Below are positions 25,862 to 63,106 of a DNA stretch of 64,000 bases, piece by piece (the stretch's first letter is position 1; every line of letters starts with the position of its first letter). Location of the stretch: NCBI GenBank assembly GCA_902596205.1, contig CACJSY010000002.1, forward strand, positions 1 to 64,000, given 5' to 3'. The notes below the pieces were generated by a model. It saw only the letters and a list, made by a program, of their open reading frames with translations, searched no databases and was not told the DNA's origin. This DNA comes from an uncultured Pelagibacteraceae bacterium. GTDB taxonomy: Bacteria > Pseudomonadota > Alphaproteobacteria > Pelagibacterales > Pelagibacteraceae. The position numbers and the translations under genes are program-made.

Positions 25862-25938
25862 GGGCCTGTAGCTCAGTTGGTTAGAGCAGTACACTCATAA
25901 TGTATTGGTCCCAGGTTCGAGTCCTGGCGGGCCCACCA
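25862..25938 (+). tRNA. tRNA with CAU anticodon (elongator Met or Ile2; not resolvable by eye)
   Basis: GGGCCTGTAGCTCAGTTGGTTAGAGCAGTACACTCATAATGTATTGGTCCCAGGTTCGAGTCCTGGCGGGCCCACCA: 7-bp acceptor stem GGGCCTG/CGGGCCC (with G.U/U.G), loop CTCATAA, TTCGAGT T-loop, encoded CCA. Confidence 0.93.
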
Positions 25939-28136: not shown

Positions 28137-28493
28137 GCCAGATAATTGGATTGTCGCTATTAGATTTTTAATAGAGGAAAGTCCGGGCTCCGTAAAGACA
28201 CAGTGCCAGTTAATGACTGGCGAAGGTGACTTCAGGGATAGTGCCACAGAAAATAAACCGCCTAATCAAGGCAAGGGTGAAACGGCGAGGTAAGAGCTCA
28301 CCGGTTTTTTGGTAACAAAAAACGCATGGCAAACCCCACTGGGAGCAAGGTTAAATAGAGAAGACAGTGTGTTTAAAGCACTAAAAACAGTCTTTAGTTA
28401 GTCTTCTGGGTTAACCGCTTGAGCTTAAATGTGAATTTAAGCCTAGAGAAATGACATCTTTAATGACAGAACCCGGCTTATAGATTATCTGGC
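28137..28493 (+). ncRNA. rnpB: RNase P RNA (bacterial class A)
   Basis: GAGGAAAGTCCGGGCTCC, AGGGTGAAACGGCGAGGTAAGAGCTCACCG, GGCAAACCCCACTGGGAGCAAG, ATGACAGAACCCGGCTTATAGATTATCTGGC; terminal pairing CCAGATAA/TTATCTGG; boundaries approximate. Confidence 0.96.
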
Positions 28494-28561
28494 AATTTCC
28501 TAATGTTTAATGTTCTACTTTTGTACTTTAAGCTGCCATAAACTTATTGACTAATTAAAAA

Positions 28562-57028: not shown

Positions 57029-57931
57029 ATGAAGATAATTGATTGTATCACTTATTTTAAAGAGCCGATGCTTTTTGAGATAAGACTTAATATATTAGAA
57101 AAGTTTGTTGATGAATTTTTAGTTTGTGAGGCAAAATATACTCACGCAGGAGAAAAAAAGGATCTTAACTTTAATATTAATAATTTCAAAAATTTTAAAA
57201 AAAAGATTAATTACATTGTAGTTGAAAATGAGCCAAGAGACTTAACAAGCATCAAAAATTTTGCTGGAACAAGTAATTCACTATTAAGAAGCAATGCTCA
57301 AAAGAGAATACTTCATCAACGTGAAGCGATTTTTCGTGAGGTAAAGAAAAAAAATAAAAATGATTGGGTTATTTATAGTGATAGTGACGAGATACCAAAT
57401 TTAGAATTATTTAATTTAAAAGATTGCAAAAAAAAAATTGTATTATTCAATCAGAAACTTTTTTATTATAAATTTAATTTGTCTCTACCTGGCTTTAGTT
57501 GGTTTGGTTCAAAGGCTTGTAGAGTAAGAGATTTGAATTCGATAACTGATCTTCGAAACATCAAGACTAAAAAATATGATTGGTGGAGAGTTGATACGTT
57601 ATTTAAAAATAACAAATTTATTAATTTGGAAATAGTTAATGATGGCGGGTGGCATTTTTCAGAGATAAAAAGCCCAGAGGAAATATTTGAAAAGCATCAA
57701 AATGACGAGCATCATGATGAATTTGAGCTTACAAATATAGGATTAGATGATGTGAGGAAAATGATTAATAATAGATACATCCATTATGATCATAAAGCTG
57801 ATAAAAAAGATTTTAGTTCTAAATGGGGAAAGGATGTAAAGGTAAAGCTTTCTAAAGTAAGCGAGGAAGAGCTGCCGAAATATTTGATACAGAATAAAAA
57901 TAAATATAATATTTGGTTTGACAATTTTTAA
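57029..57931 (+). CDS. Glycosyltransferase family 17-like protein
   Basis: MKIIDCITYFKEPMLFEIRLNILEKFVDEFLVCEAKYTHAGEKK ... DWVIYSDSDEIPNLE: GT17 (beta-1,4-GlcNAc transferase-like) signature. Confidence 0.8.
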   Translation: MKIIDCITYFKEPMLFEIRLNILEKFVDEFLVCEAKYTHAGEKKDLNFNINNFKNFKKKINYIVVENEPRDLTSIKNFAGTSNSLLRSNAQKRILHQREAIFREVKKKNKNDWVIYSDSDEIPNLELFNLKDCKKKIVLFNQKLFYYKFNLSLPGFSWFGSKACRVRDLNSITDLRNIKTKKYDWWRVDTLFKNNKFINLEIVNDGGWHFSEIKSPEEIFEKHQNDEHHDEFELTNIGLDDVRKMINNRYIHYDHKADKKDFSSKWGKDVKVKLSKVSEEELPKYLIQNKNKYNIWFDNF

Positions 57932-58863
57932 AATTTTTCTTTTTTTTTTCCTATCATTACAAAAAAACCACCCTCGTAAATCTGTCTTGAGTCGAACATT
58001 AAAAAAAATTCTTTAAGTAATATTTCATATTTACTAAGAATTGGTTTTTTTATTGTAATTTTGTCATTTAAATTGAAGTTGAAAGGTATCGAATTTATAA
58101 ATTCTATATCATTTTCTTTAAACCAATTTATAACCTCATTATAAGTATGCTTAGTTTCATAAGGATTATAATATTGATCTTTGAACCAAGCGTATTTTTT
58201 TCTCTCTGATAGATTTTCTGAAAATCTTTTATCAATAAATTTCATTTTTTCACCAAAAGTTTTTATCAAATATTGCCTTATGTTTTGAACGACTCTTCCA
58301 TATTTGTGGTATAAACCTATTACAATTATTCCATTTGGTTTTAAATGATCTACTAATTTGGCAAAAGCAGATTTAGCGTCGTGTGTGTGATGTAGAACAC
58401 CGTTTGATATAATCACGTCAAAGTAATTTCTCGGGAAACATAAATTAAAAATATTCATTCTGTAAAGTTGAACATTCTTAATATCAGTTTTATCAATAAA
58501 TTTTTTTGCTTCAATTAAACTGCCTTTAGATAAATCAATCGAGTGAATTTTTCTATTATAGCGACTTAGAGCGATTGAAAGTTGTCCAGTTCCACATCCT
58601 GCCTCTAAAATATTAGAATGAAATGGGATTTCATCATCTAGTTTCTTTACAAATATTGATTTTGAAGATTTTTCTAGAAGTGTCCCAAAATCCTCAATAT
58701 CATCGTAGTTTGGAAATTTAACATCATTATAAAATTCTGATTGAGTAGCGGTCAGTGGTTTTTCATCATCAAAATATAAGTTAGGAATGCCAAAGAAATA
58801 TTCTATATTATCTCTATCTAATTTTTGCTTATTAATAGGGTTAACTAAATCATCTAAATTCAT
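57928..58863 (-). CDS. SAM-dependent methyltransferase
   Basis: ILEAGCGTGQLSIALSRYNRKIHSIDLSKGSLIEAKKF, YFDVIISNGVLHHTHDAKSAFAKLVDHLKPNGIIVIGLYHKYGR. Confidence 0.88.
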   Translation of the reverse strand: MNLDDLVNPINKQKLDRDNIEYFFGIPNLYFDDEKPLTATQSEFYNDVKFPNYDDIEDFGTLLEKSSKSIFVKKLDDEIPFHSNILEAGCGTGQLSIALSRYNRKIHSIDLSKGSLIEAKKFIDKTDIKNVQLYRMNIFNLCFPRNYFDVIISNGVLHHTHDAKSAFAKLVDHLKPNGIIVIGLYHKYGRVVQNIRQYLIKTFGEKMKFIDKRFSENLSERKKYAWFKDQYYNPYETKHTYNEVINWFKENDIEFINSIPFNFNLNDKITIKKPILSKYEILLKEFFLMFDSRQIYEGGFFVMIGKKKEKF

Positions 58864-58881
58864 ATAAATATAATAATTTAA

Positions 58882-58906
58882 GGGGCGTTCTGTTGCTGGG
58901 TGCCTT
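58882..58906 (-). repeat. ssrA 3'-end repeat copy R6
   Basis: GGGGCGTTCTGTTGCTGGGTGCCTT (plus strand), 21/25 to the ssrA copy at 62801; similarity continues about 14 nt further (TTAACCCTTTAACTT). Confidence 0.85.
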
Positions 58907-58919
58907 TAACCCTTTAACT

Positions 58920-59096
58920 TTATTTCCAATCTGCTTTCAGTAAACCTGCACCAATTAATCCAAATATAATTGGACTAAATCTTGATAAGCCGTCTGGAAA
59001 AAAAGGAGTTAAATTAACTCCCATATAAGACAAACCAAAATCTGCTATGGCGAACATAACTAAAAGAGTTCCTATGCCTTGCATTATTTTTTTCAT
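58920..59096 (-). CDS. 58-aa small membrane protein (candidate; not in ORF track)
   Basis: MKKIMQGIGTLLVMFAIADFGLSYMGVNLTPFFPDGLSRFSPIIFGLIGAGLLKADWK*, filling the interval between repeats R6 and R5. Confidence 0.6.
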   Translation of the reverse strand: MKKIMQGIGTLLVMFAIADFGLSYMGVNLTPFFPDGLSRFSPIIFGLIGAGLLKADWK

Positions 59097-59116
59097 AATT
59101 TTATTTTATCATAAGG

Positions 59117-59141
59117 GGCGTTCTATTGCCAAGTACCCATT
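59117..59141 (-). repeat. ssrA 3'-end repeat copy R5
   Basis: GGGGCGTTCTATTGCCAAGTACCCA, 21/25 to the ssrA copy. Confidence 0.8.
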
Positions 59142-59210
59142 ATTGAATTCTAATACTAGAATACCAATCAGGTTTAGTATGTTTCTTTTCATAATTACTC
59201 ATTAATTTTA

Positions 59211-59310
59211 GAGGGTCGTTCTGTTGTTTGGTGCCCTCAATCTTGTAACATTATTCTTTATTAAACGCCATTCGCATTTGTAATAATTCTAAAAATCTTA
59301 GTGAGAAATT
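59211..59310 (-). repeat. Extended ssrA-like repeat copy R4
   Basis: GAGGGTCGTTCTGTTGTTTGGTGCCCTC plus downstream CTTGTAACATTATTC..TATTA...GCCATTCGCA...CTTAGTGA shared with R3. Confidence 0.8.
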
Positions 59311-59352
59311 TGAGTAGATTATGAATGAAATTTTATGTTAGTGTCGTGGCAC

Positions 59353-59934
59353 ATGAACAAACTTATTAAAACACTTTTTTTTACTATTTTTCTTACATCG
59401 CTAGCTCAAGCAGATGATATAACTGATTACGAAATCGAGGGAATGAGAATTGGTGAAAGTGCCTTGGAATATTTTAATAAAAACGAAATTGAAAAAAATA
59501 TTCAAAATTATTATCCCAATAAAGAAGTTCTTCCTGTCTGGCTACCTTTTGACGATAAACTTAATACTTACGACGGTGTTCAATTTCATTATAAAAAAAA
59601 TGACAAAGAATTTAAATTTTTAGCTATATCAGGGGTTATTTGGCACAAAAACGACTACAAAGGTTGTATGAAAAAACTAGAAACTGTGGATCAAAATCTT
59701 AAAGATATTTTTAAGAATGCCTCAAGACAAGTTAGAAAAAATGAACCACATAATGGAGATCCATCTGGCGAAAGCATATTTTCAGGAGTCTACTATGTTT
59801 TAAACACTAAAGATTTTGCAAGTGTTATTTGTTATGATTGGAGTGATAATTTAAAACAATTTGGAGATAATCTAAGAGTATCCTTGAGAACAAAAGAATA
59901 TCAAGATTGGATAAATAATAAAGCTTATAAATAA
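59353..59934 (+). CDS. Secreted hypothetical protein, family A paralogue 1
   Basis: Signal peptide MNKLIKTLFFTIFLTSLAQA / DDITDYEIEGMRIGESALEYF; track ORF starts at 59335 but the ATG at 59353 fits the signal peptide. Confidence 0.75.
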   Translation: MNKLIKTLFFTIFLTSLAQADDITDYEIEGMRIGESALEYFNKNEIEKNIQNYYPNKEVLPVWLPFDDKLNTYDGVQFHYKKNDKEFKFLAISGVIWHKNDYKGCMKKLETVDQNLKDIFKNASRQVRKNEPHNGDPSGESIFSGVYYVLNTKDFASVICYDWSDNLKQFGDNLRVSLRTKEYQDWINNKAYK

Positions 59935-59942
59935 TTTAAAAA

Positions 59943-60040
59943 GGGGCTTTCTGTTGCCAGGTGCCCCAGACTTTGTAACATTATTCCTTATTATAAGCCA
60001 TTCGCAATAGTTTAAAACCTAAAACTTTAGTGAAAATTCC
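59943..60040 (-). repeat. Extended ssrA-like repeat copy R3
   Basis: GGGGCTTTCTGTTGCCAGGTGCCCC, 24/25 to the ssrA copy, with about 80 bp of extended homology to R4. Confidence 0.88.
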
Positions 60041-60055
60041 GCCCCAGCTCCGCCC
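60035..60055. repeat. GC-rich direct repeat, left copy
   Basis: AATTCCGCCCCAGCTCCGCCC. Confidence 0.7.
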
Positions 60056-60079
60056 AAACTTATGATAGAAATATGAAAC

Positions 60080-60601
60080 ATGAAACATCTTCTACTGTAT
60101 TTAATTTCTCTATTAGCAATTTGCTTTAGTGTTAATGCTGAAATGGTTCATAGAGAAAGTAAAAATGAATTTAAGGGAACTACTAGTCATTACATAAAAT
60201 CAAAAATGGTAGCACCTAACAAACCTTTATCGTTTCCATATGAAAATACAAAAAGCGCTCTCCATGTTGGTTGCAAACCAAATGATTTTTACTGGGCATA
60301 TGTGGTTTTTAATAAAGTAAATTTAACAGATGGAAACATCGGGGACGGATACACCTCATATACTTTAGAGGTAAAAGCAGGTCAAAATTTCCATAAAGTA
60401 ATGGCAACACAAGATTTTGGAGAAACATTTATTAATTTTGATATGCTACCTAGTGATAGAAAAACAATTACTAAATTAATGAGAGAGAATGATGAAATTT
60501 GGATTGAATTTAATCATTACCAAGATGGCCCAAGATTTTACAAATATGACACGAGAGGTTTTTCTAAGTTATTTCAAACACATTGCAAGATTTCAAATTA
60601 A
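60080..60601 (+). CDS. Secreted hypothetical protein
   Basis: Signal peptide MKHLLLYLISLLAICFSVNA, 173 aa, cysteines in HVGCKPND and THCKISN. Confidence 0.7.
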   Translation: MKHLLLYLISLLAICFSVNAEMVHRESKNEFKGTTSHYIKSKMVAPNKPLSFPYENTKSALHVGCKPNDFYWAYVVFNKVNLTDGNIGDGYTSYTLEVKAGQNFHKVMATQDFGETFINFDMLPSDRKTITKLMRENDEIWIEFNHYQDGPRFYKYDTRGFSKLFQTHCKISN

Positions 60602-60604
60602 TTG

Positions 60605-60625
60605 AATTCCGCCCCTGTTCCGCCC
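60605..60625. repeat. GC-rich direct repeat, right copy
   Basis: AATTCCGCCCCTGTTCCGCCC, near-identical to 60035-60055. Confidence 0.7.
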
Positions 60626-60683
60626 TGTTAGGTTGCGTAATTTGAATTAATATTATTAATCTAAGAAAATTGTAAAGTTGTTA

Positions 60684-60708
60684 GGGGCGTTCTGTTACCA
60701 GGCACCGT
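60684..60708 (-). repeat. ssrA 3'-end repeat copy R2
   Basis: GGGGCGTTCTGTTACCAGGCACCGT; first 13 nt identical to the ssrA copy, right arm eroded; continues GTTAACGCCTTAAATT similar to R6. Confidence 0.78.
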
Positions 60709-61061
60709 TAACGCCTTAAATTAATTGGCGCACCGTATTTATTCTTTTTACCACCATCAGCTACCCACCAAACTATTAAAACAATAACTCCAATTATTGT
60801 TAGATAAAGAAGTTGCCACCAACCTGATCTGCCAGTGTCATGCAGTCTTCGTGATCCAACAGCCAAAGAGGGGAGTAAAACAACTATATAACCTATCCAA
60901 TAAAATAGTTCTGTATAACCTAAAAGGTAGTCTAAAATCATTCCAACTATTTGAACAATTATACAAAATAATTGAAACCACCAAAATTCAGACTTCCTAG
61001 CCCTACCTTCAAAATTTGCGAACTTATTAAAACAGACTTCAATTGATTTTGTAAAATTCAT
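60708..61061 (-). CDS. DUF805 family membrane protein
   Basis: FNKFANFEGRARKSEFWWFQLF, LLPSLAVGSRRLHDTGRSGWWQLL. Confidence 0.92.
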   Translation of the reverse strand: MNFTKSIEVCFNKFANFEGRARKSEFWWFQLFCIIVQIVGMILDYLLGYTELFYWIGYIVVLLPSLAVGSRRLHDTGRSGWWQLLYLTIIGVIVLIVWWVADGGKKNKYGAPINLRR

Positions 61062-61107
61062 TATATCTAACTACACTAATCTATTCTAAATTTAAATCTT
61101 TTTTTAG

Positions 61108-61132
61108 GGGGCGTTCTATTGCCAGGTGCCCT
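61108..61132 (-). repeat. ssrA 3'-end repeat copy R1
   Basis: GGGGCGTTCTATTGCCAGGTGCCCT, 23/25 to the ssrA copy. Confidence 0.87.
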
Positions 61133-61154
61133 TATTAAGGACACCCAACTTTGT

Positions 61155-61394
61155 TTATCTCGAAAATATACTTCCTAAAATGGCTCTAATTAAACCAAAC
61201 GCAAACAGCGCAAGAAAAATGAATAATGGTACAGCAAGCCAAATACCTAACGTACTTAATACGCAAAAATCACTAATAGTGAAATCAAAAGGTACTGGAC
61301 ACTCGTTTACATTAATAACTCTTGCATGTGCATAATTGCCCAAAGAAAAAAAATATATAAGCAAGATCCATTTATTTATTTTATTTTTCATCAT
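61155..61394 (-). CDS. Small hypothetical membrane/secreted protein
   Basis: 79 aa with two hydrophobic segments (WILLIYFFSLGNYAHA; LGIWLAVPLFIFLALFAFGLIRAIL). Confidence 0.55.
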   Translation of the reverse strand: MMKNKINKWILLIYFFSLGNYAHARVINVNECPVPFDFTISDFCVLSTLGIWLAVPLFIFLALFAFGLIRAILGSIFSR

Positions 61395-61501
61395 GTTTCT
61401 AATATAAGATCTAATAAAAAATTGTCTTGTCCAAGTTTCGATATAAATTTGGACAATAACTTATGCACATTTCAACAAAATTTATGCTAGATTCGTGGAG
61501 T

Positions 61502-62125
61502 ATGAAAAAACTTTTAGCTACCATCATTCTAAGCTTATACTTCATAACTCCATCGCATGCGGATGATATTAGAGACTTTCAGATTGAAGGAATGAGCCTA
61601 GGAGATAGTTTATTAGATAAAATTAGTGAACAAGAAATTAAAAACATTCAAAATCGTTTCCCTAAAAAAGGGTACATTTATGACTCAAATGAATACTATT
61701 CATTAACTTTTGGAAAAAATTATATTAATTTACCATCTTTAAAATTATCTCAATATGATGATTTTCAAGTTCATCTTAAACGTGATGATGAAAAATATAT
61801 TTTACCTGCTATAAGCGGAATTACTAAAATGAGTTATAAAAATTGTATGGCTGAAATGAAAATTATTGAAAAAGAATTAGATAATTTATTTAAAAACACT
61901 GAGAAAATTAAAAGAGCAACAGTAAAACATCCTTACGACAAAACCGGAGAAAGTATTGCCTCAGACGTGACTTATATCTTTACAGATGGAGCTTCAGCTG
62001 CTTTGGTATGCACTGACTGGACTGATGAAATGATTAAAAAACATAAAGGTATTTATGATCACTTACGATTAAAACTTCTTACAGGAAAATTTAATAAATG
62101 GATGCGAACAAAAGCATATAAATAA
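61502..62125 (+). CDS. Secreted hypothetical protein, family A paralogue 2
   Basis: MKKLLATIILSLYFITPSHA / DDIRDFQIEGMSLGDSLLDKI; track start 61463, ATG at 61502 fits the signal peptide better. Confidence 0.75.
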   Translation: MKKLLATIILSLYFITPSHADDIRDFQIEGMSLGDSLLDKISEQEIKNIQNRFPKKGYIYDSNEYYSLTFGKNYINLPSLKLSQYDDFQVHLKRDDEKYILPAISGITKMSYKNCMAEMKIIEKELDNLFKNTEKIKRATVKHPYDKTGESIASDVTYIFTDGASAALVCTDWTDEMIKKHKGIYDHLRLKLLTGKFNKWMRTKAYK

Positions 62126-62129
62126 ACAT

Positions 62130-62684
62130 ATGAAGCGTTTAATTCTATACCTCTTTCTTATCCTCTTCAGCTTCCAAGTTTCATCCCAGGCAAATGATAT
62201 CAAAGACTTTCAGATAGACGGGATAAGTATAGGAGATAGTTTGTTGGATCATTATAATGAAAAAGAAATTTCTAAAGCTCTAGATGTGTATAGTGACAAA
62301 AAATATACCCAAAAAACACTTTTAGCAAATCAATCTAGTTCTTATGAACAACTTCAATTTGCTTACAAAAGTTCAGACCGAAAAAAAATTATTGTAGGTT
62401 TAGGTGGTGTTATTTTTTTTTCAAATAATATATCTAAATGCAAAAAAGAAATGAAAAAAATTAGCGCGGAAGTAACTAATTTATTTCCTAATACCAATAA
62501 AAAAGAATGGGGAAAATCTAAAATGTCAGGAGGTGATTATTTTCCAATAACGTTTAAATTTGCAGATGGTTCTGCCGCAATGGTCGCTTGTTATGAATGG
62601 AATAAGGAATCGGGGGTTGAAGACAATTTAAAGGTTACTTTATATTCTGCTGAATTTAGTCAGCATTTAAATAAAAATAATTAA
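62130..62684 (+). CDS. Secreted hypothetical protein, family A paralogue 3
   Basis: MKRLILYLFLILFSFQVSSQA / NDIKDFQIDGISIGDSLLDHY. Confidence 0.75.
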   Translation: MKRLILYLFLILFSFQVSSQANDIKDFQIDGISIGDSLLDHYNEKEISKALDVYSDKKYTQKTLLANQSSSYEQLQFAYKSSDRKKIIVGLGGVIFFSNNISKCKKEMKKISAEVTNLFPNTNKKEWGKSKMSGGDYFPITFKFADGSAAMVACYEWNKESGVEDNLKVTLYSAEFSQHLNKNN

Positions 62685-62729
62685 TTTCAAATAATTCCCC
62701 CCGCAAACGCTATTTTTCTTTCTTCAGTG

Positions 62730-62758
62730 TGTCACCAGTGTGACAAGAATATTTTTTT
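62730..62758 (+). terminator. Possible intrinsic terminator for the plus-strand paralogue genes
   Basis: TGTCAC-CAGT-GTGACA hairpin followed after 6 nt by a T-run (ATTTTTTT); short stem and offset U-tract make this weak. Confidence 0.35.
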
Positions 62759-62800
62759 CGTTATATTCGTTAGCAACTACGCTCTATTCAGATTCAGGAA

Positions 62801-62825
62801 GGGGCGTTCTGTTGCCAGGTGCCCC
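62801..62825 (-). repeat. Parental copy (R0) of the repeat, at the 3' end of ssrA
   Basis: GGGGCGTTCTGTTGCCAGGTGCCCC (plus strand). Confidence 0.9.
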
Positions 62826-62966
62826 GGACCCCGTTACTTAATTAACAAAGTTAATTAAGCTGCAAGTGCAAATTTTTGATTTGCATTTATAAATTAGCCC
62901 GTTACGTCGGAACCATCTCGTACGAAAGAATAGCCTTTAGACATCCGTCGATCCTGATTCACCCCC
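62801..62966 (-). ncRNA. ssrA: tmRNA coding piece (permuted two-piece tmRNA)
   Basis: Minus strand begins GGGGGTGAATCAGGATCGACGG; tag ORF GCA AAT CAA AAA TTT GCA CTT GCA GCT TAA (ANQKFALAA*) at 62884-62855; TTAATTAAC/GTTAATTAA hairpin; terminal GGGGCACCTGGCAACAGAACGCCCC. Confidence 0.9.
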
Positions 62967-62978
62967 ATAAGTTGTAAA

Positions 62979-63065
62979 TGGTGGAGGTGGTGGGTACTGC
63001 CCCCACGTCCGTAATGTTTATTACGAAATTCGTTTATCGTCATAGTTGGAAAACCAACACTATTA
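62979..63065 (-). ncRNA. ssrA: tmRNA acceptor piece (permuted two-piece tmRNA)
   Basis: Minus strand ...GGACGTGGGGGCAGTACCCACCACCTCCACCA; T-stem GTGGG/CCCAC; CACCTCC pairs with GGGGGTG of the coding piece over 7 bp including G.U at position 3, matching the Ala identity element; 5' boundary approximate. Confidence 0.88.
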
Positions 63066-63106
63066 ATATAAAACTCTTATAGAGAGATTCAATAAATTAT
63101 TTCAAA

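Follow-up and report, generated by a model that had tools for sequence, protein, structure and literature searches.

How do genomes as streamlined as those of SAR11, which is among the ocean's most abundant cell types, gain genes at a single locus? Such gain is poorly explained, and an earlier search of SAR11 hypervariable regions found no attC sites (PMC2217521). The question is raised by a 64,000-nucleotide stretch of DNA from an uncultured Pelagibacteraceae bacterium (contig CACJSY010000002.1, positions 1 to 64,000; hereafter the window), in which the 3' end of ssrA, the gene for transfer-messenger RNA (tmRNA), recurs six times on the downstream side of the gene. We think it very likely that site-specific integration built this array, with the permuted ssrA 3' end of the Pelagibacteraceae (SAR11) as its anchor, and it is best read as a tandem-accretion array at ssrA, made up chiefly of non-autonomous cassettes. 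At the level of sequence, the target, the repeats and their directionality, the gain, loss and transfer of cassettes, an integrase at the same site in relatives and a shared arm layout are established, and we infer present-day activity, a circular intermediate and mobilisation in trans. The array would thereby offer a concrete and widespread locus and mechanism, for which both the enzyme and the crossover are predicted and the order of events in time can be read; in wild populations, gene gain would become directly measurable, and the candidate integrases, together with a short genomic target, could serve as genetic tools for these bacteria, which are difficult to manipulate.

The ssrA end and its copies

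ARAGORN recognises the ssrA gene of the window as a permuted tmRNA (tmRNA*) with the tag ANQKFALAA. The gene closes at its 3' end with the 25-mer GGGGCACCTGGCAACAGAACGCCCC (ssrA strand), which folds into a hairpin of -11.8 kcal/mol (z -2.5). A search for this 25-mer, allowing substitutions only, gave the following attachment (att)-like copies:

62797..63096, minus strand: ssrA (permuted alphaproteobacterial tmRNA), which serves as target site and stands at the array's proximal end (Rfam alpha_tmRNA RF01849, 220.2 bits)
62801..62825, minus strand: R0, attachment core within ssrA, hairpin GGGGC...GCCCC, gene 3' end
61108..61132, minus strand: R1, att-like copy, 2 mismatches
60684..60708, minus strand: R2, att-like copy, 5 mismatches
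59943..59967, minus strand: R3, att-like copy, 1 mismatch
59213..59237, minus strand: R4, att-like copy, 5 mismatches
59115..59139, minus strand: R5, att-like copy, 4 mismatches
58882..58906, minus strand: R6, most distal att-like copy, 4 mismatches

All six extra copies share the orientation of ssrA and lie downstream of it, as a first-pass annotation made from the letters alone had described; four of the starts that it gave (61108, 60684, 59943 and 58882) are exact, whereas those placed at 59117 and 59211 belong 2 nt away, at 59115 and 59213. Apart from ssrA and R1 to R6, the 25-mer has no match at up to 8 mismatches on either strand of the 64 kb. Across the organism's own genome (988 kb), matches at up to 3 mismatches are confined to three copies in the window; the reversed 25-mer gave none at the same threshold, and neither did shuffled window sequence with the 25-mer itself.

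The relatives compared are uncultured Pelagibacteraceae of the same genus or family, one per species and mostly incomplete single-cell assemblies, from many of which about 20 kb around ssrA was fetched. The repeat is present in 48 of 61 genomes of the window's genus, and its core motif in 166 of 197 genomes of a family sample (13 of 14 genera). At least one extra copy accompanies ssrA at 54 of 65 ssrA-bearing loci, with 130 extra copies in all. The first-pass annotation had set its proposal against identical content and order in all relatives, and against a repeat scattered in both orientations away from ssrA. We find 0 to 7 extra copies per locus, with differing genes between them, and all 130 copies are downstream and ssrA-oriented: none is upstream, none is in opposite orientation, and the reversed-sequence control has no match in 1.1 Mb of fetched loci. 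The frame around the array is constant: a putative thyX and ssrA, then the variable part, and beyond it a conserved gene of 123 aa and a putative fumarase gene (names read from sequence). All 100 copies at loci showing the 123-aa gene fall between ssrA and that gene, and the distance between the two genes ranges from 80 bp with zero copies (G002) up to 16 kb. Some intervals are themselves long, up to 13.6 kb (G151), so that large insertions or lost repeats occur alongside mini-cassettes.

Might the 25-mer instead be an element akin to repetitive extragenic palindromes (REP) or miniature inverted-repeat transposable elements (MITE), or a functional RNA element such as a terminator, copied round the genome? 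It does fold well, but its strict linkage to ssrA, its single orientation and the lack of further copies in its own genome at up to 3 mismatches speak against this, and what is gained or lost is whole cassettes, not hairpins; we regard this explanation as exceedingly improbable. The linkage to ssrA that was initially proposed does need one amendment: stacking at ssrA stands, whereas a few secondary arrays are seeded away from it. They were seen in one genus, in the window's genus and in G060; the places are directly past the stop codon of a putative rnhA gene, about 145 bp from tRNA-Leu(taa) and, in G060, beside a cluster of secreted paralogues of the family described below, several open reading frames (ORFs) of which lie in that second-site region.

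Insertion next to ssrA

How do the units arrive? In 35 pairs of genomes, one empty and one filled, the DNA that follows ssrA in one is the DNA that follows an array copy in the other; homology sets in no more than about 12 nt from the repeat, and upstream of it there is no similarity. G002 is thus an empty site relative to G035 and G033, and G042 relative to G014, G028 and G158. Full-length cassettes recur in differing orders and neighbourhoods: a 384-bp DUF2784 cassette is found at seven loci, and cassettes of 208 and 399 bp are common to the window and G036. G045 and G087, with flanking core genes 66-77% identical, share a 247-bp cassette at 99.6% identity, which indicates that the cassette was transferred horizontally as a whole unit. 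Sequence comparison accordingly shows cassettes to be gained, lost and reshuffled, with the joins at the repeat.

The copies themselves carry a signature of insertion at ssrA. Compared with ssrA, they hold 165 mismatches at positions 1-4 and 31 at positions 22-25, an asymmetry that is expected if the cassette brings the left part along and the right part derives from the ssrA end that was displaced. Mean mismatches at positions 8-25 rise with rank from ssrA (0.28, 0.91, 0.95, 1.33 and 2.4; within-array permutation p=1e-4), whereas positions 1-4 have no rank gradient (p=0.14); because arrays and cassettes share ancestry, p values here and below are inexact and overstate independence. This rise with distance, set against flat positions 1-4, indicates that the newest unit adjoins ssrA. 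In G048, the newest element has delivered its own right part to ssrA (GCTCT, not GCCCC), the hairpin being kept through G-U pairs (-7.1 vs -11.8 kcal/mol); in this element, the best mapped, the crossover is confined to CAACAGAACGC, positions 12-22 of the 25-mer. The pairs, the divergence gradient and the asymmetry, along with integrase elements in two relatives, bear out the repeated insertion at the ssrA 3' end that had been suggested for the window.

We envision that a circular element, equipped with a ssrA 3' end of its own, would recombine with ssrA by a crossover inside the 25-mer. The gene would keep its left half and gain an equivalent right half, and the tmRNA hairpin would survive for that reason, while the displaced right half would become the distal copy. 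Serial insertion would then push older units and scars outward. Autonomous members of 7.5-9.4 kb, found in relatives, encode a divergent tyrosine integrase; the majority of units, all those of the window among them, are integrase-free, with one to few genes and att copies at both ends.

Alternatively, homologous recombination at 25-50 bp repeats or flanking cassette ends might shuffle the cassettes after natural DNA uptake, the repeats being old scars with no recombinase acting now. Composite intervals do exist that mix the A, B, D and E types of cassette end, the framework shared by A and B ends offers longer homology than the core alone, and integrases are rare. Yet the joins fall at the repeat without upstream similarity, and both the left/right asymmetry and the rank gradient fit insertion at ssrA; phased matched arms, described below, serve no purpose in homologous exchange, and in two genera this very site is taken by an intact integrase element. 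We consider this alternative unlikely as a general account, but homologous exchange may shuffle composite intervals within an array built by site-specific integration.

Integrases and their arm sites

Which enzyme might drive the insertion? The array of the window gives no PF00589 match and so holds no integrase gene, in agreement with the first-pass annotation, which had suggested searching host genomes for a tyrosine recombinase beside the same repeat. Such a recombinase is found in G048 and G328, where intact integrase-bearing elements adjoin ssrA; a remnant does so in G313.

L041 1842-9385 (oriented): element of G048, 7.5 kb, ssrA-proximal
L319 2291-11678: element of G328, 9.4 kb, beginning at ssrA, in a different genus from G048

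The G048 element encodes a 409-aa protein with tyrosine-recombinase motifs, for which Pfam and NCBIfam give no match, a sequence search of PDB found no match and IMG/VR contained no relatives. Its homologue in G328 matches the PHROG_1 integrase (4.8e-13); matches to PF00589 and to a SAM-like integrase domain (SAM_5) are weak. The two elements are syntenic, with resolvases 61% and a 127-aa protein 74% identical; the resolvases are small serine enzymes (225-246 aa) with weak similarity to CcrB, and no DsiB/CcrB-like large serine integrase was found in either element, the integrase there being the tyrosine recombinase. Further genes of the G328 element specify a T4-like sliding clamp (1.5e-41) and an Arc-like repressor, so that its life cycle may be satellite-like. 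In G313, a C-terminal integrase fragment, 68% identical to the G048 protein, lies by a distal att copy immediately ahead of the 123-aa gene; an integrase fragment may also lie near ssrA in G088, and G014 has an inverted remnant of a G048-type end. Homologues of the elements were further seen in G116, G240 and G104, where the fetched contig holds no ssrA.

Direct repeats phased at 11-12 bp lie just within each end of the integrase elements; with those of the cassettes included, such repeats span roughly +45 to +73 and -42 to -110 (offsets counted from the 25-nt repeat). The arms of G048, TATGTACC, stand at +50, +61, +73 and -54, -42, and those of G328, CAACGAAGT, at +48, +60, +71 and -57, -45. 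Three genera have integrase-less cassettes, seven in all, in which the latter motif recurs at the identical -57/-45; among 14,800 random windows, 23 hold a double match to it. In B-type cassettes, GGACTCAC stands at +46, +57 and -105, -90, -78, -67; the pair occurs ten times in 61 whole genomes, nine times within about 100 bp of a known copy, and the tenth revealed a hidden, decayed copy of the repeat. A-type cassettes have a common framework with cassette-specific arms, and a cassette's own left and right arms match in 20 of 26 cassettes, where 8.0 would be expected (p=2e-4, the smallest value that the test can give); some of this is background similarity, since an inner-window control also shows a weaker excess (p=0.009). 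In the window, the 716-bp cassette has GGGCGGA arms at both ends. Phased direct-repeat arms that flank a core are the layout of a heterobivalent (lambda-like) integrase site, and the anatomy as a whole matches lambda-like tyrosine integrases inserting elements again and again at the ssrA end.

Given that arms are conserved at the same inner positions as in the integrase elements, in units with no integrase gene, the larger integrase-less cassettes are most likely mobilised, or were once moved, by integrases acting in trans. How might the arm-less mini-cassettes have spread? Conceivably, and this is a guess, they are captured by recombination with a neighbouring arm-flanked copy.

Several points weigh against the integration model. 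Genes of the integrase type are rare (11 of 397 family genomes); the window array lacks one, and none was seen together with A or B arms. Mini-cassettes (208-399 bp) have no arms, and D-type cassettes have right arms without left arms, so that the latter could be deletion remnants rather than mobile units. Some cassettes sit at the secondary places near tRNA-Leu and 3' of rnhA, where a pre-existing target sequence can only be presumed. Excision is a prediction from sequence comparison, and to these points must be added the shared ancestry that affects the p values.

It could be asked whether all integrase-less cassettes are decayed remnants of autonomous elements, left by serial deletion. The fragment of an integrase close to ssrA in G313, perhaps another in G088, the inverted G048-type end of G014 and the D cassettes, which retain right arms only, argue for this, and decay from autonomous elements surely contributes, as in G313, G014 and the D-type ends. 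As an account of every cassette it is doubtful: those of 384, 247, 208 and 399 bp keep the same length and boundaries across contexts and distant hosts, one of them is 99.6% identical across species, and arms match at both ends in most A cassettes. We thus retain accretion of chiefly non-autonomous, site-specifically integrated units. The locus has an intact RNA gene at one end and a displaced end fragment in the same orientation at the other, with an empty site in relatives and the join inside the repeat, as genomic islands do that a tyrosine integrase has placed at a tRNA or tmRNA gene; an integrase is encoded in G048 and G328 and not in the window, the units of which we class as non-autonomous on that ground. 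Several tandem units are bounded by att copies, some of them integrase-free, as in tandem accretion.

Phages were considered as a source of the site. A phage attachment site (attP) was rejected: the exact 21-nt core occurred in 8 IMG/VR contigs and the exact 17-nt core in 57, and those inspected were almost all permuted tmRNAs of phages. The isolate phage set had no match, the A and B end motifs were absent from IMG/VR, and no second repeat copy was found in the phage contigs examined. Marine viral contigs carry whole permuted tmRNAs that end in the same 25-mer, or in the same 17-nt loop with another stem; cassettes might, in principle, land at such a phage ssrA.

The hosts' own recombinases were considered as conceivable trans-acting enzymes. 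In most genomes of the genus, just one PF00589 protein is present (for example G000:C3:33959-34501). The one tested scores 72 bits against a cut-off of 329.6 bits (XerC/XerD), and the chromosome-dimer resolution system of the genus looks unusual because this single protein falls so far below the cut-offs.

Known systems and the cassettes of the window

How does the array compare with systems already described? Islands at tmRNA genes are common, and arrays of at least three, with an integrase each, number only four in the Islander set (PMC4383910). In Dehalococcoides, ssrA repeats are stacked with and without integration modules; 15 ssrA islands lack the module and were proposed to be cis-mobilizable through accretion, the target is a 20-bp repeat of ssrA near the T-loop, and a CcrB-type large serine recombinase acts as integrase (McMurdie et al. 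2011, PMC3146451). The SAR11 units are likewise stacked at ssrA, some of them integrase-free, but use a permuted ssrA end and a tyrosine recombinase, with cassettes down to about 200 bp. The same paper names cis-mobilizable elements and the tandem accretion of integrative and conjugative (ICE) or integrative and mobilizable (IME) elements (PMC3146451). SAR11 cassettes differ from these in that ICE/IME accretion involves large elements with one integrase specificity, whereas SAR11 arms vary by cassette. In general, cis-mobilizable ICE/IME units are integrase-free, have functional att flanks, are stacked site-specifically and are mobilised by a neighbour's integrase.

The additive island fGI-2 of Ca. 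Methylopumilus, according to passages of PMC10872708, varies in content from 330 bp to 42 kb, and the final 20 nt of tRNA-Lys recur in it. On those passages it resembles the SAR11 array in its streamlined aquatic host and recurring copies of an RNA-gene end; it differs in its tRNA target, and the passages mention no integrase, arm sites, or boundary or age analysis. They also describe tycheposons, cargo elements of 4-200 kb with a tRNA and an XerD-type recombinase (PMC10872708). The SAR11 units differ from tycheposons in having a tmRNA target, in being far smaller and in mostly lacking a recombinase. Tycheposons of Prochlorococcus share with them a marine streamlined host, a tyrosine recombinase and cargo at an RNA gene. 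The kind of locus is therefore already known, from the ssrA islands of Dehalococcoides and the tRNA-Lys islands of Methylopumilus; the integrase family also sets the SAR11 array apart from known cases, and what looks new is the tiny cassettes, the cassette-specific arms, the permuted-ssrA target and the SAR11 setting. Among openly readable papers, our search found none describing this ssrA locus in SAR11.

The array had been called integron-like, which holds as an analogy: small exchangeable cassettes with a site each form an array that grows at a fixed anchor. Is it a true integron, with IntI and attC cassettes? A cassette array, a folding recombination site and an anchor-proximal insertion end would suit one. 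However, no IntI-type recombinase occurs in any array examined, including the window's, so that by membership the array is not an integron; there is no attI, the recombination site is the 3' end of ssrA itself, an essential RNA gene, and the larger cassettes have lambda-like arms. A true integron in SAR11 is, we judge, very improbable. Tentatively, and with less than even confidence, we raise the possibility of an integron analogue of independent origin: an exchangeable integrase-free pool in SAR11, anchored on the essential permuted ssrA, in which cassette-specific arms would each be addressed by different members of a divergent tyrosine-integrase group carried on rare satellite-like elements, and arm-less one-gene mini-cassettes would be captured and spread between species.

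The intervals of the window and their genes are as follows:

61133..62800, unstranded: interval 1, 1668 bp, with genes for two secreted paralogues and a 79-aa protein; arm-like repeats at the left end only (ORFs, arm search)
62130..62684, plus strand: secreted paralogue, 184 aa (homologue and identity comparison)
61502..62125, plus strand: secreted paralogue, 207 aa, family not assigned (no Pfam/PHROG family; homologues in many arrays)
61155..61394, minus strand: 79-aa membrane/secreted protein (ORF; homologue in the G015 array)
60709..61107, unstranded: 399-bp mini-cassette with DUF805 gene (PF05656, 3.5e-23; 83.7% identical to a 399-bp cassette in G036)
59968..60683, unstranded: 716-bp A-type cassette with a 173-aa secreted protein (60080-60601, plus strand; ORFs, arm search)
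60607..60625, minus strand: left arm-type repeats of the 716-bp cassette, GGGCGGAA x2, 11 bp apart (arm search)
60037..60055, minus strand: right arm-type repeats of the 716-bp cassette, GGGCGGA(A/G) x2, 11 bp apart, matching the left arms (arm search)
59238..59942, unstranded: 705-bp cassette with an A-type right end, matched arms absent (ORFs, end comparison, arm search)
59353-59934: secreted paralogue, 193 aa, in the 705-bp cassette (ORF)
59140..59212, unstranded: 73-bp gene-free interval (ORFs)
58907..59114, unstranded: 208-bp mini-cassette with a 58-aa membrane protein (58920-59096, minus strand; cassette comparison)
57029..58863, unstranded: variable distal segment with a GT17-type glycosyltransferase and a methyltransferase, ahead of the conserved 123-aa and fumarase genes

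These contents agree with the genes first read from the sequence (three secreted paralogues, the 79-aa protein, DUF805, the 173-aa secreted protein and the 58-aa protein), as does the gene-free interval between R5 and R4, which measures 73 bp. Interval 1 is probably composite, since its arm-like repeats are at the left end only. The DUF805 gene (60708-61061, minus strand) ends with a stop codon that abuts R2, and its G036 counterpart, a cassette of the same 399 bp, adjoins ssrA. The 208-bp cassette is 93.8% identical to the G036 cassette of the same length, the core genes being about 81% identical.

The three secreted paralogues of the window are 37-40% identical to one another, and their family is abundant in the arrays. 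No Pfam or PHROG family matched them (59353-59934, 61502-62125 and 62130-62684), and a predicted fold (model predicted local distance difference test score, pLDDT, 73.5) had no PDB match at E up to 0.001. Among the cargo of relatives' arrays are MrcB_N/NOV_C, a DNA methyltransferase and a trypsin-like protease, a hint that some cassettes may serve in defence. Elsewhere, the window holds an RNase P RNA (28138-28496) and a tRNA-Met (25862-25938), both of them ordinary.

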